Source: a virus. Taken from it: a stretch of 31,859 nucleotides of DNA. Both the position numbers and the translations under genes were made by a program. Below, in pieces: positions 1,263 through 12,257 of this stretch. The number at the start of each line of letters is the position of its first letter. Position 1 is the stretch's first letter. The notes under the pieces are model-generated. The model had not been told where the DNA came from. It did not search any database and was given only the letters and a program-made list of their open reading frames with translations. The DNA lies in IMG/VR virus record IMGVR_UViG_3300034062_005249, positions 1 through 31,859 of that record; one strand, 5' to 3'.

Positions 1263-1291
1263 TTGTATTTTTATCCAAAAAATGTTAGACT
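1263..1291 (+). promoter_or_regulatory. promoter with short leader (for the 1327 gene)
   Basis: TTGTAT (1263-1268), 17-nt spacer, TAGACT (1286-1291). The block AAAAAATGTTAGACT is shared base for base with the 2038 promoter. Transcription should start near 1298, leaving a leader of about 29 nt with a strong ribosome site. TAAGAA lies just upstream of the -35. Confidence 0.7.
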
Positions 1292-1326
1292 TATACAGTA
1301 AGCAAAAACCAACAAGAAGGAGAACC

Positions 1327-1491
1327 ATGTCCGTATCAAACGCAACATACAAAGTAGGAGATACCTACACAAGCCAAAAGTCAAAAGCAACAGGCGTTAT
1401 CAAAGAAATCGTGCCACAGGCAAATGGTAATGTTCGTGTTAAGTTAGATGTTGCTGGCGCAACTCGCTGGACTACTTGGACAGCAAAGTAA
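1327..1491 (+). CDS. small KOW/SH3-like protein, paralogue A (54 aa)
   Basis: Pattern YKVGDTYTSQKSKATGVIKEI followed by short beta-strand-like segments suggests a small SH3/KOW-like barrel; function unknown. The start is fixed by AGAAGGAG six bases before the ATG; an in-frame ATG at 1282 lies inside the promoter and is rejected. It is a paralogue of the 2105 protein (Y-x-[IV]-G-D-x-[FY]-T-x2-K...TG-x-I). Each copy sits in the same module: promoter, short leader, gene, pseudoknot. Confidence 0.75.
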   Translation: MSVSNATYKVGDTYTSQKSKATGVIKEIVPQANGNVRVKLDVAGATRWTTWTAK

Positions 1492-1493
1492 TC

Positions 1494-1540
1494 TTAGCCT
1501 AGTGGCTAAAAGTCCTGAGCATGACTACTAAAACTGCTCA
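1494..1540 (+). ncRNA. 3' RNA element 1: hairpin plus H-type pseudoknot
   Basis: Three bases after the stop: hairpin TTAGCC-TAGT-GGCTAA (1494-1509), then stem 1 AGTC (1511-1514)/GACT (1523-1526). The loop bases TGAGCA (1516-1521) pair with TGCTCA (1535-1540) across an A-rich linker. This is the H-type pseudoknot geometry: L1 1 nt, S2 6 bp, L2 1 nt, L3 8 nt. Four more copies with compensatory stem changes lie at 2280, 2991, 4185 and 6493. Function unknown; a 3'-end or transcript-stability element is likely. Confidence 0.7.
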
Positions 1541-1588
1541 ACTTAATACCCCCATCAAACCCACCAAACAGAAACGGAAACAAACTAA

Positions 1589-2011
1589 ATGGCAAGAGGC
1601 AAAGCAATAAATGTAAAAATCGCTACACCAAAAGTTATTACAGCCCTAACAAATAAGTTAGCAGAACTAGAGGCTAACTACAAGAAGCAAGACGAGAACG
1701 AAGCAAAGTATAACGAAGCACTAGAGGCTTGGAAAAAAGAATTATTTGCTTTCGCTATCGCTAACATAGATAAGGCTCAAAATGTGCGAACAAACTATCG
1801 TCAATGGTCAAACAACCTTAATGTTGATTTTGATTTAACAGTTAAGGAAGGCGAGTTCCCTGCTGAACCAACTAGGGATTTTGAGCAAATCCATCAGCAC
1901 ACTTATCGTGAAATGAAAGAGGAAATCTCTAACGCTATCCGTATCCTTTTAATGACGGACGAGGAAACAGTTAGCACTAGCACCTACAACGCTATTGCTC
2001 GTTATCTTTAA
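1589..2011 (+). CDS. hypothetical protein (140 aa), helical
   Basis: No recognised domain. The first half (about residues 15-60) is a Lys/Glu-rich helix with coiled-coil character, and the rest is mixed. The ATG is preceded by only a weak purine tract. Pseudoknot element 1 ends about 48 bases upstream, so the gene may be read through from the 1263 promoter. The stop codon is inside a perfect 7-bp inverted repeat (GTTATCT/AGATAAC, 2001-2020), which could end this transcript or act as an operator for the next promoter. Confidence 0.7.
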   Translation: MARGKAINVKIATPKVITALTNKLAELEANYKKQDENEAKYNEALEAWKKELFAFAIANIDKAQNVRTNYRQWSNNLNVDFDLTVKEGEFPAEPTRDFEQIHQHTYREMKEEISNAIRILLMTDEETVSTSTYNAIARYL

Positions 2012-2025
2012 TTAGATAACTAGGT

Positions 2026-2066
2026 GGGGAAGGGTATTTGACTTCCCCCCTAAAAAATGTTAGACT
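2026..2066 (+). promoter_or_regulatory. promoter with inverted repeat over the -35 (for the 2105 gene)
   Basis: TTGACT (2038-2043), 17-nt spacer, TAGACT (2061-2066), predicted start near 2073. An inverted repeat GGGGAAG (2026-2032)/CTTCCCC (2042-2048) encloses the -35. The same arrangement recurs at the 6418 promoter. This promoter lacks a CRP-like site, so it may belong to a different control class. Confidence 0.7.
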
Positions 2067-2104
2067 AAGTAAGTAAGCAAACACCACAACAGAAAAGGAA
2101 AATC

Positions 2105-2275
2105 ATGACACTAGGCGGTTACACATACCAAATCGGTGATTTATTCACCACAAGCAAAACAGGCGTTACAGGTAGAATTGTAAAGTTCTCACCTATCAAC
2201 TCTAAACTAACTCGTATTTCTTTACAGTTAGCAAATGGTTCTCGTCGTCTTGCTATGGTAAGCACAACTAAATAA
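2105..2275 (+). CDS. small KOW/SH3-like protein, paralogue B (56 aa)
   Basis: MTLGGYTYQIGDLFTTSKTG is followed by VTGRIVKFSP and a beta-rich C-terminal half. Aligned by eye with the 1327 protein, the positions Y-x-[IV]-G-D, T-x2-K and T-G-x-I are shared, so the two are paralogues. The start has AAAAGGAAAA upstream and follows the leader of the 2038 promoter, which is itself related to the 1263 promoter. The duplication therefore includes control sequences. Function unknown. Confidence 0.7.
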   Translation: MTLGGYTYQIGDLFTTSKTGVTGRIVKFSPINSKLTRISLQLANGSRRLAMVSTTK

Positions 2276-2279
2276 TAAA

Positions 2280-2309
2280 AACTCCTGAGCATGAGTTCTA
2301 AACTGCTCA
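2280..2309 (+). ncRNA. 3' pseudoknot element 2
   Basis: Starts four bases after the stop of the 2105 gene. Stem 1 is ACTC (2281-2284)/GAGT (2293-2296), extendable by one A-T pair. Loop TGAGCA (2286-2291) pairs with TGCTCA (2304-2309). Compared with element 1, the second stem-1 pair differs on both strands (G-C to C-G), a compensatory change. Confidence 0.7.
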
Positions 2310-2319
2310 CCTTTTAATT

Positions 2320-2337
2320 GCCCCAAAAAATCGGGGC
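2320..2337 (+). terminator. weak GC hairpin after pseudoknot element 2
   Basis: GCCCC (2320-2324), 8-nt loop, GGGGC (2333-2337), then CGCCCTTT. The T run is short, so termination is uncertain. Similar GGGGCG patches sit upstream of other CRP-like sites (319-330) and after the tRNA-Asp (4298-4308). Confidence 0.35.
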
Positions 2338-2343
2338 GCCCTT

Positions 2344-2359
2344 TGTGATCTAAATCACA
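2344..2359. promoter_or_regulatory. CRP/GlxR-like operator 3
   Basis: TGTGA-TCTAAA-TCACA, both half-sites perfect and TA at the centre. The centre is about 75 bp upstream of the predicted start of the 2392 promoter. Confidence 0.7.
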
Positions 2360-2391
2360 TCTCATTATTTGAGACTAATTAAGAACTGGAC

Positions 2392-2420
2392 TTGCATTTC
2401 CCCAATCATCCTGATATTAT
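2392..2420 (+). promoter_or_regulatory. promoter for the 2453 gene
   Basis: TTGCAT (2392-2397), 17-nt spacer beginning TTCCCC, TATTAT (2415-2420). Start expected near 2427, giving a leader of about 26 nt. A TTAAGAA box precedes the -35. Confidence 0.7.
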
Positions 2421-2452
2421 TATATTAACAACAACAGAAAGCAGGCCCCGCA

Positions 2453-2932
2453 ATGTCAACCAATATCAATGACGCCGTAACAATTGACAAACTAGAAGTA
2501 CCTTATAATCCAAATTTACTCGTAACCTATAAAGCAATCGCAGGCACATATGCTGCTCCTGAAGAGGCAACATATCTAACATCCAAGGTAACAGAACTTG
2601 AATGGGACCTACACAGTGCTCGTGCTAAAGAAGATTCATTGCGTAGTATTCAAGGAACAGTGAGACAACTTGAAGACAATATTGTAGAATGGTATGACCC
2701 TAACTATTCTAAAGAAGAAGTTCTTGTAGCGCTATGTGAACTCTTTGGTATTAATCCAGTTAAGGAAATTGAAGTACAAGGAACAGTCACATTCACTGGA
2801 ACAATCAGTGTACCAATGTCAGAAATTGCTGACTTTGACTTAAGCAATGTTTCAATTGAGGCTGATTTAAGTTCATATGACTATGACGCAGACTTAAATG
2901 TAGACGAAGTTACAGTTGAAGAGGCATATTAA
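2453..2932 (+). CDS. conserved-type phage hypothetical protein (159 aa)
   Basis: No enzyme motif seen. Residues 40-75 form a charged helix; about residues 105-159 are acidic with alternating beta-type sequence (VQGTVTFTGTISVP and later Asp/Glu-rich stretches), suggesting a helical N-terminal part joined to an acidic beta-rich tail. Expressed from its own CRP-linked promoter and followed by a structured 3' region with two hairpins and a pseudoknot, so probably a single-gene transcript. Confidence 0.7.
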   Translation: MSTNINDAVTIDKLEVPYNPNLLVTYKAIAGTYAAPEEATYLTSKVTELEWDLHSARAKEDSLRSIQGTVRQLEDNIVEWYDPNYSKEEVLVALCELFGINPVKEIEVQGTVTFTGTISVPMSEIADFDLSNVSIEADLSSYDYDADLNVDEVTVEEAY

Positions 2933-2935
2933 ATT

Positions 2936-3030
2936 TGATAGGGGGCTATCAGAACTGGCCACGGTACAGCCAGTATAAATAAGGGGCCAAAGATCCTGAG
3001 CATGATTTAAAACTGCTTATTTTTTCTTTT
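2936..3030 (+). ncRNA. structured 3' region with pseudoknot element 3 and T tract
   Basis: Two hairpins come first: TGATAG-GGGG-CTATCA (2936-2951) and ACTGGC/GCCAGT (2954-2974). The pseudoknot follows: AGATC (2991-2995)/GATTT (3004-3008), and TGAGCA (2997-3002) with TGCTTA (3014-3019). The C-to-T change in the last strand keeps pairing as G-U. TTTTTTCTTTT (3020-3030) follows, so this copy could also act as an intrinsic terminator. Confidence 0.7.
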
Positions 3031-3044
3031 AAAATCCCGCCCCC

Positions 3045-3060
3045 CGTGATCTATATCACA
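3045..3060. promoter_or_regulatory. CRP/GlxR-like operator 4
   Basis: CGTGA-TCTATA-TCACA: one mismatch in the left half-site, TA at the centre. The centre is about 83 bp upstream of the start predicted for the 3101 promoter, the same distance as operator 2 from its promoter. Confidence 0.65.
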
Positions 3061-3100
3061 CCAGGAAATGTCCGAATTGTCCAATGTTTAAGAAGATGAA

Positions 3101-3129
3101 TTGACATTCCCCAAAATTTTTGCTATGCT
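3101..3129 (+). promoter_or_regulatory. strong promoter for the DUF932 gene
   Basis: Consensus TTGACA (3101-3106), 17-nt spacer beginning TTCCCC, TATGCT (3124-3129). Start expected near 3136, leaving a leader of about 26 nt. TTAAGAAG lies upstream of the -35. Confidence 0.75.
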
Positions 3130-3161
3130 TAATTAAACAATCTACAGAAAGAAGAAAACTC

Positions 3162-4178
3162 ATGGCACATGACCTAGAAGAACAAAACGGAAAAACATCT
3201 TTTGCATCTTTCCGTGAACCTGCATGGCATGGATTGGGTACTGTCTTTACAGAAGAAAAAACAACATCGGAAATGCTGGAAGCAGCAAGTCTAAATGGTT
3301 GGAATGTTCGTCTTGAAGATATGCCTATCCCATCACACTTAACAAGCGACAAAGAATACCAATATGTTGTTCGTACAAATCCTACTGACAAAACACAAAC
3401 CGACGTGTTGGGTGTTGTTGGTGAGCGTTACCATGTATTGCAAAATGAAGATTTATTTTCATTTGGCGATAACATTTTAGATGGTGGTGGACGTTGGGAG
3501 ACTGCTGGCTCAATTAAAGGTGGTCGTGTTGTGTTCGGTGCTTTAGCACTAGAGCGTGAAACTATCCTTGACCCTAGTGGTGTTGCAGATAAGGTTAAAA
3601 CCTATCTTCTCATTAACACATCGCATGATGGCTCAATCGCAATTCAAGCAAGCATTACACCTGTTCGTGTTGTGTGCGCTAATACTCTTAACCTTGCGTT
3701 AAATCGCACTAAGAAAAAAGATGGCGTTAAGCAATCTTTCAAGATTCGTCACACACAAACCGCAAATGGTAAAGTGCAAATTGCTCGTGAGACTTTAGGT
3801 CTTGCCAATAAGTACATGGACGAATTTGATATGATGGCTAAAGCCATGATTGAAAAGACTGTTGATGCTAAAATGTTTAACGACATTATTCTTGCTGCTT
3901 ATCCTAAGCCAGATGCAGATGCAAAAGGCTCATTCAAGAAATGGGAAAATAAAATAGATATGATTAACGATATCTATACTGGTGAATTTAACGGAATGAT
4001 TGCTGGCAATGCGTGGGGTGCTTTCAATGCACTAACTGAGCGTTTAGACTGGTATCGTTCTGCTCGTGGTGGTTCTAACGAATCTATCCTTGCAAGTGCA
4101 TCAGGATTTGACCCTGCAATTAACGCAGAGAAAAATCGCTTACTAAAAGTTGTGCAAAATACTTTGCAACTAGTTTAG
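3162..4178 (+). CDS. DUF932 / TIGR03299-type phage-plasmid protein (338 aa)
   Basis: Matches the pattern of the phage/plasmid-like DUF932 family (TIGR03299): N-terminal PAWHGLGT, VVGERYHVLQNEDLF, GGRVVFGALAL, and a central SITPVRVVCANTLNLAL. The molecular function of this family is not established; members sit near recombination and defence-related genes in phages and plasmids. Length is normal for the family. An in-frame ATG at 3120 falls inside the promoter spacer, so 3162, after a purine-rich GAAAGAAGAAAA, is chosen. Pseudoknot element 4 and a tRNA follow within 45 bases. Confidence 0.85.
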   Translation: MAHDLEEQNGKTSFASFREPAWHGLGTVFTEEKTTSEMLEAASLNGWNVRLEDMPIPSHLTSDKEYQYVVRTNPTDKTQTDVLGVVGERYHVLQNEDLFSFGDNILDGGGRWETAGSIKGGRVVFGALALERETILDPSGVADKVKTYLLINTSHDGSIAIQASITPVRVVCANTLNLALNRTKKKDGVKQSFKIRHTQTANGKVQIARETLGLANKYMDEFDMMAKAMIEKTVDAKMFNDIILAAYPKPDADAKGSFKKWENKIDMINDIYTGEFNGMIAGNAWGAFNALTERLDWYRSARGGSNESILASASGFDPAINAEKNRLLKVVQNTLQLV

Positions 4179-4184
4179 TAAAAA

Positions 4185-4213
4185 AAATCCTGAGCAAGAT
4201 TTAAAACTGCTCA
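4185..4213 (+). ncRNA. 3' pseudoknot element 4
   Basis: Six bases after the DUF932 stop. Stem 1 AAATC (4185-4189)/GATTT (4198-4202) is fully paired. TGAGCA (4191-4196) pairs with TGCTCA (4208-4213) over the linker AAAAC. It ends six bases before the tRNA-Asp, so a role at the mRNA/tRNA boundary is possible. Confidence 0.7.
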
Positions 4214-4219
4214 CCATTC

Positions 4220-4293
4220 GGAGTGTTAGCATAGTTGGTTAATGCGCTACCCTGTCACGGTAGAGATCACGGGTTCAAGTCCCGTACACTTCG
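4220..4293 (+). tRNA. tRNA-Asp (GTC)
   Basis: Cloverleaf by eye: acceptor GGAGTGT/ACACTTC (one G-T pair), anticodon stem CTACC/GGTAG with loop CTGTCAC, anticodon GTC, and T-arm ACGGG-TTCAAGT-CCCGT. Discriminator G; no encoded CCA. Lies between a pseudoknot element and the GGGGCGCCCC patch. Confidence 0.92.
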
Positions 4294-4354
4294 CAAATGC
4301 GGGGCGCCCCTTCTCTAAAAGTATATTAATACACAAAATCTTTATTAAGAGGAC

Positions 4355-4383
4355 TTGCTTTTTTTCCCGAAACCCTGTAAAAT
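4355..4383 (+). promoter_or_regulatory. leaderless promoter for the 4390 operon
   Basis: TTGCTT (4355-4360), 17-nt spacer, TAAAAT (4378-4383), then 6 nt to the ATG at 4390. TTAAGAGGAC precedes the -35. No CRP-like site upstream. Confidence 0.75.
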
Positions 4384-4389
4384 ATTAAT

Positions 4390-4563
4390 ATGACCCTAAA
4401 AACCGTAGAAAAACTAAGAGCCATGACAGTTGGAAACCTTGTAGATGAAATCTATAATGATAACTACTCTCACCTAGATTTTATGGATAACATGGGTGGA
4501 GACTGTGACTGTGTAATTCACACTACCCTGCAAACCATTCTAGAGTATTGGGAGGTAAAGTAA
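4390..4563 (+). CDS. small hypothetical protein (57 aa)
   Basis: Acidic, with LRAMTVGNLVDEIYNDNYSH and a later CDC pair; not recognised. The start is set by the leaderless promoter: no ribosome site exists and the ATG lies at the predicted transcription start. The stop overlaps the next start as TAATG. Confidence 0.65.
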   Translation: MTLKTVEKLRAMTVGNLVDEIYNDNYSHLDFMDNMGGDCDCVIHTTLQTILEYWEVK

Positions 4564-4739
4564 TGTTAGGTTATACCTATAAAGATATACAAGCCTTTGG
4601 TAATAGTTTAACTTGGGCTATTGATACCGCCAAAAACCAGGGGGATGAACAAAACTATAAACAATTGCTAATAGTATGGGACTTCTTTGAGGGACTACTA
4701 GCAGAAGGGTATATAGATGAAAACACCTACTATGGATAA
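4563..4739 (+). CDS. small hypothetical protein (58 aa)
   Basis: Begins MLGYTYKDIQAFGNSLTWAI; helical, with aromatic residues, not recognised. ATG 4563 is chosen over an in-frame TTG at 4548 because GGAGG (4551-4555) sits at the right distance and the upstream stop overlaps it. Probably translated with its neighbours as a three-gene operon. Confidence 0.65.
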   Translation: MLGYTYKDIQAFGNSLTWAIDTAKNQGDEQNYKQLLIVWDFFEGLLAEGYIDENTYYG

Positions 4740-4956
4740 GACCTGGACTAAGTATGATTATCTATGCACTGATTGTGATGCTCTTATTGAGATAACTACC
4801 CTTGTAAATATCAGAGAGTGGCGTGGCTGGTGTTCCTGTGGATCTGCTAATATAATTAATATTGGGGTATCAGATGCCTTTGCTCCTATCATTACAGATG
4901 TGAGCAAGATCACACCCACACAAGTTGTCAAAGTCAACTCCAACCCTTATAATTAA
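4717..4956 (+). CDS. zinc-ribbon micro-protein (79 aa)
   Basis: One zinc ribbon: CTDC near residues 17-20 and WCSCGS near 38-43, followed by a hydrophobic/polar tail. A related ribbon is encoded at 8449. Start 4717 has AGAAGGG upstream; ATG 4732 is an alternative. The last codons carry the -10 box of the next promoter and a CRP-like site, so coding and control sequence overlap here. Role unknown; nucleic-acid or protein binding is usual for such ribbons. Confidence 0.65.
   Translation: MKTPTMDKTWTKYDYLCTDCDALIEITTLVNIREWRGWCSCGSANIINIGVSDAFAPIITDVSKITPTQVVKVNSNPYN
4899..4914. promoter_or_regulatory. CRP/GlxR-like operator 5 (inside a coding region)
   Basis: TGTGA-GCAAGA-TCACA, both half-sites perfect, inside the 4717 gene (codons for DVSKIT). 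Its centre is about 53 bp upstream of the leaderless start at 4960. Confidence 0.65.
4925..4953 (+). promoter_or_regulatory. leaderless promoter for the 4960 operon
   Basis: TTGTCA (4925-4930), 17-nt spacer, TATAAT (4948-4953), 6 nt, ATG at 4960. It lies wholly within the 3' end of the 4717 gene. Confidence 0.75.
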
Positions 4957-4959
4957 TAT

Positions 4960-5112
4960 ATGGACCTAAACACATTAAGAGAGTATATAAGAATTCACAC
5001 AATATCCCTTGAACAGGATTTGCAAAACGAGGACGGTGCTGATAGTATTGTTCCTTACCTTGAAGGAGCCATTCATGTATCTAAGCACTACTTGGAGATG
5101 ATTGATGAATAA
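4960..5112 (+). CDS. small hypothetical protein (50 aa)
   Basis: MDLNTLREYIRIHTISLEQD... is a predicted all-helical acidic protein, not recognised. First gene of the leaderless 4960-6350 operon. Its end overlaps the next start by eight bases. Confidence 0.6.
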   Translation: MDLNTLREYIRIHTISLEQDLQNEDGADSIVPYLEGAIHVSKHYLEMIDE

Positions 5113-5383
5113 TCTTGACTACGAATTTTCACCACGACTACAAAAGTTAGTAGACATGGGTGAATCAGGTTTGAACATCATTCATGGTGAATTAAAGAAC
5201 CTTATGCTGGCAGCAGAAACACAATTAGATATTGCTCAGAAGGCTGAGGCTGAATCAGAAGAAGCAATGGATTCAATACAGCGAGCCTACTGGGAAGGTC
5301 AGATTGACGCACTCACGACGGTATATCAACTAACATACGATTTATCATTTGCTATCAATGAAAGGATAGAGACAAATGAATGA
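5105..5383 (+). CDS. helical hypothetical protein (92 aa)
   Basis: Mostly helical with an Ala/Glu-rich coiled-coil-like middle (about residues 30-65). ATG 5105 is chosen over the TTG three bases upstream because of TTGGAGATG upstream. The stop overlaps the next ATG (5376). Function unknown. Confidence 0.6.
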   Translation: MNNLDYEFSPRLQKLVDMGESGLNIIHGELKNLMLAAETQLDIAQKAEAESEEAMDSIQRAYWEGQIDALTTVYQLTYDLSFAINERIETNE

Positions 5384-5837
5384 CCTAATACAACTTACAG
5401 AGGAAGAGTGGTTTGATAAATTCAAGCCAATCCCAAACCATATAGATAGCAATGCCTCATTCCAAACTGAGGATGGCGTAGGTTATATGTTTGAGACATA
5501 TGATGACGAGTTGAGGTTTGTCCAATCTCAGGAGCCTAATAGGATATGGACTTATTGTGATGGGGACGACAGAGGTACCTATATATTTCAGGGTATGCGT
5601 ATAGTTAATAGGATTGGTTACTTTGTAACTGCCGTGCCCTTTGATGGTAGCAAGGATTATCAGATACAGATTAGCAGCGAGGGTGTTTACGAATGTCCTA
5701 ACTGTTATGAGATATGGGAAGATGAAGCAGCAGCCTTACATTATGAAAAGTTTGAGGATTTGGAAAAATGTGCTGGTTGCGCTACAATAGAAGAAATAGC
5801 AGAACTAGATGAAATGGAGAACCACACTCTTGGCTAG
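5376..5837 (+). CDS. conserved actinophage-type protein with C-terminal zinc site (153 aa)
   Basis: N-terminal part LTEEEWFDKFKPIPNHID and the segment ETYDDELRFVQSQ with WTYCDGDD are of a type I associate with actinophage hypothetical proteins. The C-terminal part holds CPNC (about 108-111) and a later CAGC (about 133-136), which could form a zinc ribbon. No catalytic motif seen. Overlapped at both ends by its operon neighbours. Confidence 0.7.
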   Translation: MNDLIQLTEEEWFDKFKPIPNHIDSNASFQTEDGVGYMFETYDDELRFVQSQEPNRIWTYCDGDDRGTYIFQGMRIVNRIGYFVTAVPFDGSKDYQIQISSEGVYECPNCYEIWEDEAAALHYEKFEDLEKCAGCATIEEIAELDEMENHTLG

Positions 5838-5988
5838 ATGGGAAATAGAAGTAATATTTGAACCAACAGGCGATTACATGAACTTTGAGTATGAGACTGA
5901 CAATGAAGATGAAGACAGCATCTTTAATGAGATATCTAACCAACTATCAATCGTACCAAATCTAATTGAGAAGAATGAGGAAGAGTAA
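5830..5988 (+). CDS. small acidic protein with TTG start (52 aa)
   Basis: TTG at 5830 is supported by GGAGA at 5816-5820; the next in-frame ATG (5878) would remove the well-formed segment ARWEIEVIFEPTGDY. Very acidic C-terminal half. Stop overlaps the next gene as TAATG. Not recognised. Confidence 0.6.
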   Translation: MARWEIEVIFEPTGDYMNFEYETDNEDEDSIFNEISNQLSIVPNLIEKNEEE

Positions 5989-6350
5989 TGGGAGCACGTT
6001 GCACATTCGTTTTTAAACAGTCAGAGGATCTAGCAGTAGCGCTGTACAGCCACTGGGGCGAAGACAGTATGTACGAAGATCTTGCTCAGGCCCTGCAGCA
6101 TGCAGCGGTACGAAGCGGGGACAGAGAGTACTACGTCCGTATGGCCATTAGTCATCTACTAAAGGATTCCATTCTGGATGAAACAGGGTTTGGCATCTAT
6201 GCCTGCAATCCTAATGACCTAGGTTTTATGGACCATCCAATATTAATTGACCTGACTAATAACACTATCAGTCATGACTCTGTCAATCATAAAGATATTG
6301 ATAGTTTTATTAAATATAATTTGCCTAGCGACGTCCTTTCCGTTGTGTAG
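5988..6350 (+). CDS. conserved phage hypothetical protein (120 aa)
   Basis: MGARCTFVFKQ, ALYSHWGED and TGFGIYA are features of a small actinophage family that I recognise by pattern but cannot name. Alternating beta and helix with a central acidic stretch. Last gene of the 4960 operon. A stable hairpin follows nine bases after the stop. Confidence 0.7.
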   Translation: MGARCTFVFKQSEDLAVALYSHWGEDSMYEDLAQALQHAAVRSGDREYYVRMAISHLLKDSILDETGFGIYACNPNDLGFMDHPILIDLTNNTISHDSVNHKDIDSFIKYNLPSDVLSVV

Positions 6351-6358
6351 GCAGCATA

Positions 6359-6384
6359 AGCGGAGGTAGGGGTCACCTCTCGCT
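6359..6384 (+). terminator. long hairpin at the end of the 4960 operon
   Basis: AGCG-GAGGT (6359-6367) pairs with ACCTC-t-CGCT (6375-6384), nine pairs with one bulge. No T tract follows, so it may protect the 3' end rather than terminate. Confidence 0.4.
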
Positions 6385-6392
6385 ATAGATAG

Positions 6393-6446
6393 GGGGAAGC
6401 GTAGGTTTGTGGTGGGCTTGCGCTTCCCCACACAATTTGCTATAAT
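6393..6446 (+). promoter_or_regulatory. promoter with inverted repeat over the -35 (for the structured RNA)
   Basis: TTGCGC (6418-6423), 17-nt spacer, TATAAT (6441-6446), start near 6453. A 9-bp inverted repeat GGGGAAGCG (6393-6401)/CGCTTCCCC (6421-6429) brackets the -35, like GGGGAAG/CTTCCCC at the 2038 promoter. No CRP-like site. Confidence 0.7.
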
Positions 6447-6452
6447 TATAGA

Positions 6453-6520
6453 GTTCCCACTATAAGGTGTTCTTCGGAAGTGCCTAAAGTGGACTCCTGA
6501 GTAAGAGTATAAAGTGCTCA
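6453..6520 (+). ncRNA. structured leader or small RNA with pseudoknot element 5
   Basis: From the predicted start the RNA folds into an outer stem CCACT (6457-6461)/AGTGG (6488-6492) enclosing a TTC-TTCG-GAA tetraloop hairpin. The pseudoknot comes directly after: ACTC (6493-6496)/GAGT (6505-6508), with TGAGTA (6498-6503) pairing TGCTCA (6515-6520) through one U-G. There is no gene between promoter and pseudoknot. It is therefore a stand-alone RNA of about 70 nt or the 5' leader of the 6542 gene, whose ribosome site begins 12 bases later. Confidence 0.6.
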
Positions 6521-6541: not shown

Positions 6542-6766
6542 GTGAGAACCATAAGACTAAGAATTAGTAAAGAAGAAAAGGTGGCAGACAAAATAACTAC
6601 TCTGCTATCTGACTTTACTCTTGACTTAGAAGCCATAGGATTTTATTTAGCAAAGGCTTCACCACACATTATTTATACGAGGGCTAATGAAGTATTAGAA
6701 GCCATGCAGTATAATAAAGAGGTTGAACAATTAGATAGAGGTGCTTACTATGGCAATGGCAGGTAA
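6542..6766 (+). CDS. small hypothetical protein, GTG start (74 aa)
   Basis: AAGGAGATA immediately precedes GTG 6542. The N-terminus MRTIRLRISKEEKVADKI is basic and helical, reminiscent of small DNA-binding or antitoxin-like proteins, but nothing firm supports that. Sits behind the structured RNA at 6453-6520, which could control it. Its end overlaps the next gene. Confidence 0.6.
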   Translation: MRTIRLRISKEEKVADKITTLLSDFTLDLEAIGFYLAKASPHIIYTRANEVLEAMQYNKEVEQLDRGAYYGNGR

Positions 6767-7019: not shown

Positions 7020-7456
7020 TAGTAGATCTGCGGCGGGGCGGGTCCAAATCATACTAAACTAGGACAAACCTCCCAAACCTTATTTTCCAAAAAGACATTA
7101 AGAACCCTTTCTAAAAAATCCCAGAAAGTTATCAAACCTTTCTATCTCAAACCTTATATCCGACAAACCTTCATACCAGGATATAGGGTTTTGTATCTTA
7201 TACTATAGGTATTACGATCATATCTTTTTATCCCCCGCCCAAAACGTTTTTAATTATCCTATCAGACATTACGGGGGCCTTCAAAAAATCCCAGAAAGTT
7301 GGCGGGGGATCCAGAAAGATACAACTAATTACCCCCTATAATATATCAAACCTTTTCTCCTGGTTTTTAAATATTTATCAAACCTTTCTAGATTTTTTCC
7401 TGGTGTTTTAAAACATTTTATAACTTTTTCGTTATGTTTTTATAGGGGTTTTAGAG

Positions 7457-7485
7457 TTGACAAACCTTGCTTTTGGGTATATAAT
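7457..7485 (+). promoter_or_regulatory. consensus promoter inside the repeat region
   Basis: TTGACA (7457-7462), 17-nt spacer, TATAAT (7480-7485). A CAAACCTT repeat (7461-7468) overlaps the -35, so a protein binding the repeats would block it. Transcription would run into three inverted repeat copies (7509-7540). Confidence 0.65.
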
Positions 7486-7487
7486 GC

Positions 7488-7613
7488 ATGCCAGATATGC
7501 AGGATAGGAAGGTTTGGAAGGTTTGGGATAGGAAGGTTTGGCCGCCAGAGGATTACGACGCCATCTATAAAGTCGCCCAATCACCCACTATCCTCCACTT
7601 TCCTCCCTTTTAA
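7488..7613 (+). CDS. possible 41-aa ORF in the repeat region (doubtful)
   Basis: Opens two bases after the -10 box; a second ATG at 7497 fits the predicted start better. The first half is repeat-encoded (KVW repeated three times) and the second half (PPEDYDAIYKVAQSPTILHF) looks more protein-like. No ribosome site. The transcript could equally be non-coding. Confidence 0.2.
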   Translation: MPDMQDRKVWKVWDRKVWPPEDYDAIYKVAQSPTILHFPPF

Positions 7614-7872
7614 CTATAATTAAAAAATATCAGTAAGATTTATTTTTCTTATCAAACCATTCCAGATGGCATTTAAAAGCCTTCCAAGCCTTAAATCAGC
7701 GGGTATCAAACCATCGCCCTGGATCCATATTGTGCATATTCTCATTATCAAACCAGATAGTTGCACATAGGTTCAAACCTTTATATCAGGGATATCTGGC
7801 TATCTGGCTATGGGGATATCAGGCTATAGGGTTTGAAAGGTTTGTTATTACACTGGGGGGATTACGACACTC

Positions 7873-7901
7873 TTTACATTCCCGCCGAATTATGGGATAA
7901 T
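7873..7901 (+). promoter_or_regulatory. leaderless promoter for endonuclease VII
   Basis: TTTACA (7873-7878), 17-nt spacer starting TTCCCGCCGAA, GATAAT (7896-7901), 5 nt, ATG at 7907. The spacer shares CCGCCGAA with the 8414 promoter. Confidence 0.65.
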
Positions 7902-11567: not shown

Positions 11568-12257
11568 ATGTCCAAAGAAATAACATTTACCAATGTGCTT
11601 GGGTTAGATTTTTTTCCACCCAAGCCAGCAGTAAAAGAAGTGCCAGATTGGTATAAAAATACACCAGAGTATATTGGTGACAAAGTAAAAAAAGTTCCTG
11701 TTGATGGAAGTTCACCGCATACAATTAAAAAATGTATACCTGTATTTGATGCTATAACTGCTGGTTATATTCTTTATACTCAAGTAGATGTTCAAGTGAC
11801 ACAACAAAATGATTTGCCTTATTACAATTGGGCATCTCAAGATGCTATTAATTTTCATCCAATAGTCCAGGCCTCACTACATCCAGCAAAAAATGAAGCA
11901 CCATATCCTAAATGGATGAATCCATATGCTATTAGCACACCACCTGGATACTCAATTTTATTTATACAACCAATGCATAGGCAATCAATGTTTACCATTT
12001 TTGATGGTATAGTAGATACTGATACTTTCAAAGCCACAGTTAATTTTCCATTTGTACTTAATGATGTCAAATGGGAAGGTCTGATCCCAGCAGGAACTCC
12101 AATGGCTCAGGTAATACCATTTAAAAGAGAATCTTGGAAACACAAAATAGGATCTGATAAAGAACGTATAGAGCAAGAAAAAATAGTAAAAAAGTTAAAA
12201 ACTTTATTCTTTAACTCTTATAAAAGACAATTTTGGACATCAAAAAACTATAGATAG
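11568..12257 (+). CDS. PPGYS-family phage protein, copy 3 (229 aa)
   Basis: Same signature as the 9359 protein: VPDWYKNTPEY (25-35), KKCIPVFDAITAGY (54-67), TPPGYSILF (124-132), GIVDTD (147-152), GTPMAQVIPFKRESW (176-190). The VDTD acidic pair is intact here. No ribosome site; probably leaderless. Two zinc-ribbon micro-proteins follow directly. Confidence 0.75.
   Translation: MSKEITFTNVLGLDFFPPKPAVKEVPDWYKNTPEYIGDKVKKVPVDGSSPHTIKKCIPVFDAITAGYILYTQVDVQVTQQNDLPYYNWASQDAINFHPIVQASLHPAKNEAPYPKWMNPYAISTPPGYSILFIQPMHRQSMFTIFDGIVDTDTFKATVNFPFVLNDVKWEGLIPAGTPMAQVIPFKRESWKHKIGSDKERIEQEKIVKKLKTLFFNSYKRQFWTSKNYR

Follow-up and report, generated by a model that had tools for sequence, protein, structure and literature searches.

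Several classes of small structured RNA resemble, in one respect or another, an element that recurs five times in a virus record from IMG/VR (IMGVR_UViG_3300034062_005249; the whole 31,859-base record is referred to here as the window). The element is an H-type pseudoknot of 26–34 nucleotides (nt) that is found mostly behind the stop codons of phage genes. Among the closest is the gene 32 mRNA pseudoknot of phages T2 and T4, which is also an H-type knot in a phage mRNA with two coaxial stems, and which in T2 has a one-nucleotide first loop. The gene 32 knot belongs to a single gene in relatives of T4, lies 67 nt 5' of the start codon and is bound by gp32, so that translation is repressed; a 2010 review considered it possibly the sole viral case of a pseudoknot in translational autoregulation (PMC3014915). 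The family described here, in contrast, is multi-copy, mostly located behind stops, and found in unrelated phages beside unrelated genes. We rejected an autoregulatory knot of the gene 32 type, as the copies are mostly behind stops and precede genes of 175 different clusters.

Other known systems share either the fold or the location. Luteovirus-type frameshift pseudoknots, e.g. that of beet western yellows virus, are small H-type knots with a short C-containing first loop and an A-rich loop in the minor groove of stem 1, and they lie a few nucleotides from the decoding site; the knot in the window and its relatives, however, lie behind a stop (preferentially UAA) with only a short in-frame extension, and no recoding is apparent. 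Repetitive extragenic palindromic elements and terminator hairpins are 3'-protective structures behind stop codons that are proposed to block 3'–5' exonucleases, but the present element differs from both in being a pseudoknot with conserved loops, mostly without a U-tract. Theta ribozymes are small pseudoknotted phage RNAs adjoining phage tRNA genes; they cleave themselves at the 3' end of the tRNA and fold into a nested double pseudoknot (PMC10879173), whereas the present knot is single, 28 nt long and lies 5' of the tRNA.

A covarying pseudoknot family

An earlier reading of the window, made from its sequence alone (the sequence-only reading), had described five copies of the knot, and all five are present with the geometry it gave. 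The core pattern CTGAGYA-N(8-16)-TGCTYA has five matches in the window, all on the + strand and none on the other, whereas 0.05 matches are expected from dinucleotide-preserving shuffles. The copies are as follows (S1 and S2, stems 1 and 2; L1 and L3, first and third loops):

1511..1540, + strand: pseudoknot copy 1; S1 AGTC (1511-1514) with GACT (1523-1526); L1 C (1515); S2 TGAGCA (1516-1521) with TGCTCA (1535-1540); junction T (1522); L3 ACTAAAAC (1527-1534)
2280..2309, + strand: pseudoknot copy 2; S1 (A)ACTC (2280-2284) with GAGT(T) (2293-2297); L1 C (2285); S2 TGAGCA (2286-2291) with TGCTCA (2304-2309); L3 CTAAAC
2991..3019, + strand: pseudoknot copy 3; S1 AGATC (2991-2995) with GATTT (3004-3008), one G-U; L1 C (2996); S2 TGAGCA (2997-3002) with TGCTTA (3014-3019), one G-U; L3 AAAAC
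4185..4213, + strand: pseudoknot copy 4; S1 AAATC (4185-4189) with GATTT (4198-4202); L1 C (4190); S2 TGAGCA (4191-4196) with TGCTCA (4208-4213); L3 AAAAC
6493..6520, + strand: pseudoknot copy 5; S1 ACTC (6493-6496) with GAGT (6505-6508); L1 C (6497); S2 TGAGTA (6498-6503) with TGCTCA (6515-6520), one G-U; L3 ATAAAG

The third loop is A-rich in every window copy, and stem 1 changes from copy to copy with its pairing kept, as had been claimed (AGTC/GACT, ACTC/GAGT, AGATC/GATTT with its one G-U, AAATC/GATTT and again ACTC/GAGT in copies 1 to 5).

The same architecture is widespread among viruses. A scan of IMG/VR with CCTGAGCA-N(8-14)-CTGCTCA found at least 120 stretches, and most of the matches listed are not chance matches, because the letters left free by the pattern (stem 1, W and AAA) keep the same arrangement. 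A structural scan requiring both stems collected 438 non-redundant copies from 331 contigs, against 1 in the reversed sequence (4.5 Mb; as these loci had been fetched for carrying the motif, 438 does not measure its density). A related pattern, run on 28 entire records of viruses or phages, matched 43 times, with 1–4 matches per record in most, and its reversed form 0 times. The shuffle, reversed-sequence and reversed-pattern controls together rule out a chance origin. The sequence-only reading would have been refuted had no more copies with compensated stems turned up; they were sought with pattern scans and structural scans instead of a covariance model, and the outcome was strongly in its favour. 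Among 84,980 bacterial and archaeal genomes (GTDB) there were 24 pattern matches, of which about five are plausible (L127, L129, L142, L146 and L148), the count being a lower bound since this pattern omitted the commonest loop length. The plausible copies are mostly on short contigs of metagenome-assembled genomes and may be viral, and an element of host genomes was rejected on these grounds. In some loci the knots are clustered, with two or three within a few hundred bases (e.g. L393, L276 and L038, around 11873-11954, where knots are 57 nt apart).

The family consensus is NNWC-C-UNNNNA-W-GWNN-n-AAAC-UNNNNA: S1 comprises 3–5 base pairs (bp), of which the C-G pair at the junction is invariant; the first loop, a single C, spans the six-pair S2; one W stands at the junction, and the last loop ends in AAAC. 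Covariation was counted in 270 unfiltered pattern matches pooled over relaxed scans; the structure-selected alignment was left out of these counts because its use would be circular. S1 pairs 2–4 are paired in 96, 95 and 75% of the 270 sequences, against 45, 42 and 43% when the 3' letters are shuffled, and S2 pairs 2 and 5 in 97 and 98%, against 70 and 75%; pairing falls to 18–41% if either strand is shifted by 1–3 columns. In the commonest length class, with 74 unique unfiltered copies, S1 pairs 1–3 are kept in 68, 70 and 71 of them; pair 2 occurs as T-A, A-T and C-G, and pair 3 in all four Watson-Crick forms. The fifth S1 pair is at chance level in the 270 sequences; the length of 4–5 pairs read from the window thus holds for the window copies, but family-wide the stem is one of 3–4 bp plus optional pairs.

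Stem 2 had been said to tolerate only G-U changes, which is true of the five window copies but not of the family. When this stem was relaxed pair by pair, truly compensated variants appeared, including TAAGCA/TGCTTA (86 unique), TGAGTA/TACTCA (72), TGGGCA/TGCCCA, TGAACA/TGTTCA, TTAGCA/TGCTAA and TCAGCA/TGCTGA, and pairs 3 and 4 vary as well with pairing kept. Relaxing the one-base loop (2 stretches) or the first S2 pair (12 stretches) added almost nothing, so that both are truly constrained. With two interleaved stems that both covary, the element is an H-type pseudoknot, and the proposal of a conserved RNA knot with compensatory changes behind phage genes is upheld. One subfamily has the form GTATTCC-(S2)-TGAAGACAAAC-(S2'), often with GGACGTGATNNNCGTC 5' of it (L307, L335, L376, L295, L321 and L096), and presents three compensated S2 sequences (TAAGCA, TTAGCA and TGGACA) in one frame.

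No family of Rfam 15 matched over the window copies, small stretches around three of the copies gave chance-level Rfam matches only, and no Rfam riboswitch was matched, in agreement with the sequence-only reading, which had recognized no riboswitch class. The nearest class by score, for one copy, is the cis-acting GP20-b (RF03003); it was rejected, as the best score was 12.6 bits (for the copy in a Moorella phage) against a gathering score of 36.2, and the GP20-b model placed none of nine phage records above its cut-off, found no copies there, and gave chance matches in nine out of 14 controls. The GP20-b consensus gGuCagcccgcaGgCgUAAAAgugcgg is itself compatible with an H-type pseudoknot (a GuC/GgC stem and an A-rich loop) that is missing from the structure line in Rfam. 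We found no description of the element in the literature, where the large computed lists of phage RNA candidates were outside our scope and may hold it unnamed. Pseudoknots of this type are known, but a conserved family of them at the mRNA ends of DNA phages is apparently new, as far as tested, and, whatever its function, the absence from Rfam of so widespread a covarying RNA family is a notable gap.

Surroundings of the knot

The knots are oriented with the genes around them: 276 copies lie between two sense genes and 3 between two antisense genes, against 114 and 141 for random positions in the same loci (n = 438; genes were called by a simple open reading frame (ORF) rule, and the 51 copies counted as inside antisense genes include spurious ORFs). 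Out of 438 copies, 290 (66%) lie within 60 nt behind the stop of a frame that is 60 codons or longer, compared with 14% of control positions. Four of the window copies had been placed 4–60 nt behind a stop, and the gaps for copies 1 to 4 are indeed about 19, 4–5, 58 and 6 nt; the fifth is at 142 nt. For example, in copy 2 a TAA at 2273-2275 is followed 4–5 nt later by S1, and copy 4 is squeezed between the TAG stop of a DUF932 gene, 6 nt away, and a tRNA-Asp gene that begins 6 nt further on. Features of the window near the knots are:

1282..1491, + strand: small gene, 69 aa, upstream of copy 1
1494..1509, + strand: hairpin TTAGCC-TAGT-GGCTAA adjoining copy 1, read from the sequence
1589..2011, + strand: MARGKAI-type gene, 140 aa
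3120..4178, + strand: DUF932-family gene, upstream of copy 4
4220..4293, + strand: tRNA-Asp (Rfam tRNA match and ARAGORN), mature 5' end 6 nt past copy 4
6441-6446: TATAAT box, 5' of the UUCG-loop hairpin of copy 5
6457..6492, + strand: hairpin with outer stem CCACT...AGTGG and UUCG loop, adjoining copy 5, read from the sequence

Counted from the last base of the stop codon, distances to the one-base loop are sharply bounded below at 8–9 nt and peak at 9 nt, alike for S1 of 3, 4 and 5 bp. The stop codon itself is biased: among 164 copies near stops, UAA is used in 131 (80%; background 56%) and UGA in eight (5%; background 25%), so that readthrough into the fold looks selected against. A stimulator of readthrough or frameshifting was rejected on these figures and on a median in-frame extension of 13 codons (slippery heptamers were not searched for). 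At the other side of the knot, 33 copies, window copy 4 included, end 1–13 nt 5' of a tRNA gene, all of them in sense orientation and with at least eight tRNA identities (ARAGORN); a tRNA within 60 nt 5' of the knot is seen for five copies only, and none of these is nearer than 22 nt.

Such spacing invites a reading in which the ribosome is the target. With the stop in the A site, the core of the knot is just past the mRNA entry of the terminating ribosome; at this leading edge it might tune termination or recycling, prevent sliding or re-initiation, or exclude ribosomes from the tRNA or leader behind it. The exact 9-nt limit and mode for S1 of 3–5 bp, the preference for UAA and the tRNA genes directly behind the knot all speak for this, but the limit is equally expected of any fold in a 3' untranslated region (3'-UTR) that needs to stay wound, and about a third of the copies lie away from stops, some in promoter-proximal leaders. 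We regard a ribosome-directed role as unlikely.

Copy 5 is one of these leader copies. It shows no tie to a stop and sits 5' of AAGGAG and a GTG at 6542, in a leader in which the TATAAT box is followed by the UUCG-loop hairpin and then directly by the knot. This layout of promoter, hairpin and pseudoknot recurs in several loci; the leader minority includes, besides copy 5, L017, L085, L086, L106 and L428, with a TATAAT box, then the knot, and often a hairpin between them. Over all copies that have no nearby stop, a TATAAT within 100 nt upstream is about twofold enriched (9% vs 4–5%), and so are hairpins just 5' of the knot (0.24 vs 0.12).

Downstream of the knot, the first 9 nt are poor in G (5–8% vs 20%) in every class except where a tRNA starts, and U-runs occur within the first 14 nt behind 6–18% of the copies (control 0–1%), equally commonly before tRNA genes. 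The G-poor, pyrimidine-rich stretch, the U-runs and the copies close behind promoters could reflect a role in transcription, i.e. as a pause, a terminator, a barrier to Rho or an antitermination RNA, with RNA polymerase as the one target common to all these hosts. However, more than 80% of the copies have no U-run, U-runs are as frequent before tRNA genes, which need to be transcribed, and the element follows the upstream and not the downstream gene (see below); we consider this rather improbable. Intrinsic termination in particular, one of the roles offered by the sequence-only reading, is unlikely as a general role, given the few U-runs and the copies 1–13 nt before tRNAs that need transcription, and it was rejected as such; out of the roles offered there, protection of the 3' end fits best.

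Neighbouring genes, host range and candidate role

We compared the genes on both sides of the knot in pairs of copies from different contigs. Only the upstream gene is homologous in 385 pairs, only the downstream gene in 109, and both in 118 (counts that are inflated by related phages in the sample); the excess of upstream-only pairs indicates that the element goes with the upstream gene. In this the knot behaves as a 3'-UTR element. Otherwise the neighbours vary widely, falling into 167 clusters upstream and 175 downstream, and no common pathway was found among them. DUF932 is the largest upstream family (38 contigs), and the 3' neighbour in these cases belongs to 14 different gene families or is a tRNA-Asp (20 cases). 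Other families seen in the window that recur beside the knot are those of Hsp20 and of class II ribonucleotide reductase, and two of small genes. A small-gene family related to the 69-aa gene is upstream of a pseudoknot in 14 contigs, and homologues of the 140-aa MARGKAI-type gene are directly upstream in 23 contigs and downstream in 20. In two Streptomyces phages, a DUF932 relative is followed by an ordinary hairpin and T-run terminator in place of the knot, as if one 3' end device had replaced another.

The diversity of neighbours also bears on the possibility that the knot is a binding site, either a phage operator like that of T4 gene 32 or a riboswitch for a small ligand. Its unpaired letters (C, W and AAAC) are invariant and a U-A pair nearly so, as might be expected of such a site. 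But the neighbouring genes are spread over many clusters, the knot is present in phages of many phyla, copies precede tRNA genes, no Rfam riboswitch matches, and the invariant letters also fit groove triples; a role of this kind appears improbable.

Host range was assessed by searching annotated phages with short consensus sequences (BLAST), after which the loci were read. An intergenic knot is found in phages of Synechococcus (S-SM2 and S-RIM4), Roseobacter (SIO1), Lentibacter (ICBM2), Paracoccus, Rhizobium, Mycobacterium (Labelle), Corynebacterium (phi673), Lactobacillus (KC5a and phig1e), Staphylococcus (StB12) and Moorella, and also in the crAss-like cr7_1 and cr8_1, gut Heliusvirales and a microvirus. 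Some copies in these phages carry one mismatch or a shorter S2. In S. aureus phages of the phiETA group, a variant whose S2 has four pairs lies between the minor capsid gene and a scaffold-type gene. Matches in phages of Erwinia and Vibrio, in E. coli phage GJ1 and in Rtp have imperfect stems and were not counted as firm members, and a match in Lak-A1 (L245) was judged to be no copy. In S. aureus phage B122 (L516), a BPROM promoter call at 2506-2542 overlaps the pseudoknot variant, and annotated 'promoter' features cover the same variant in B166, B236 and phiJB.

In the Lactobacillus and Staphylococcus phages the knot lies 5' of scaffold and capsid genes, and in the microvirus 5' of the capsid gene. 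These copies, together with those in leaders (window copy 5, L085, L086 and L428), would suit a protector of 5' ends that blocks 5'–3' decay by RNase J and stabilises the downstream cistron, similar in role to the viral exonuclease-resistant RNAs (xrRNAs). Knots directly before tRNA genes, however, have no downstream message to protect, and homology follows the upstream gene. Degenerate relatives are moreover present in phages of E. coli, Erwinia and Vibrio, hosts that are not known to have RNase J, which makes an explanation by RNase J host lineage not decisive. We consider 5'-end protection as the general role very improbable.

The reading that we favour, and to which we give about an even chance, is that this new family of minimal H-type pseudoknot RNAs serves as a general stabiliser of phage 3'-UTRs, i.e. 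of mRNA ends. The fold and its covariation, the sense untranslated position, the spacing from the stop, the adjacency to tRNAs and the association with the upstream gene are observed. From these a mechanism can be proposed: the invariant loop letters (C and AAAC) would form groove triples and turn the knot into a short, mechanically stable plug; the mRNA end would arise by termination or by processing downstream, e.g. by an RNase P cut at a tRNA 1–13 nt behind, after which the message would end in the knot. This plug, followed by a short tail poor in G, would stop 3'–5' exonucleases, so that the upstream cistron stays intact and translatable and its yield rises, and the few knots in promoter-proximal 5' leaders may provide the same protection for 5' ends. 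A further version, to which we give a somewhat lower chance, holds that the knot is a 28-nt module placed straight behind stops and ahead of tRNA genes by phages of many bacterial phyla, where it blocks exonucleases by RNA alone and keeps the 3' ends of processed messages durable, as a DNA-phage counterpart of viral xrRNAs or of the poly(A) tail.

Several points weigh against a stabiliser of 3' ends, in addition to the inflation of the homologous-pair counts. About a third of the copies are more than 60 nt from a stop, some of them in leaders, and a purely 3' role leaves these leader copies unexplained, given their position just behind a promoter. Knots of Lactobacillus and Staphylococcus phages that stand ahead of scaffold and capsid genes might rather be expected to protect the message behind them. 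The constant C, W, AAAC and U-A pair, finally, could equally be protein contacts.

If the stabiliser reading is true, phages of Cyanobacteria, Firmicutes, Actinobacteria, Alphaproteobacteria and Bacteroidetes hosts have in common one tiny RNA module at the ends of their mRNAs, which would offer a handle on how phage messages survive and gain defined 3' ends across hosts, and a 28-nt part for mRNA stabilisation in many bacteria; the family may then also come to be labelled a new variant of protective 3' structures. Cultured carriers (S-SM2, SIO1, Labelle and KC5a) make the reading testable.

Repetitive sequences outside the knots

Three further kinds of repeat were noted in the window. TGTGA-N6-TCACA palindromes, which are like CRP/FNR-type sites, are found at 332-349, 2344-2361, 3045-3062 and 4899-4916, mostly in gaps ahead of a gene apparently served by a promoter of its own. 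A GC-rich repeat around GGGGCGCCCTTT, possibly a terminator or operator, occurs at 314-331, 2327-2344 and 4295-4312; it immediately precedes two of these palindromes and follows copies 2 and 4 of the knot. In the region 7020-7900 (about 900 bases), convincing genes are scarce and ATCAAACCTT/AAGGTTTG recurs many times in direct and inverted orientation; this is possibly a replication origin or iteron region.

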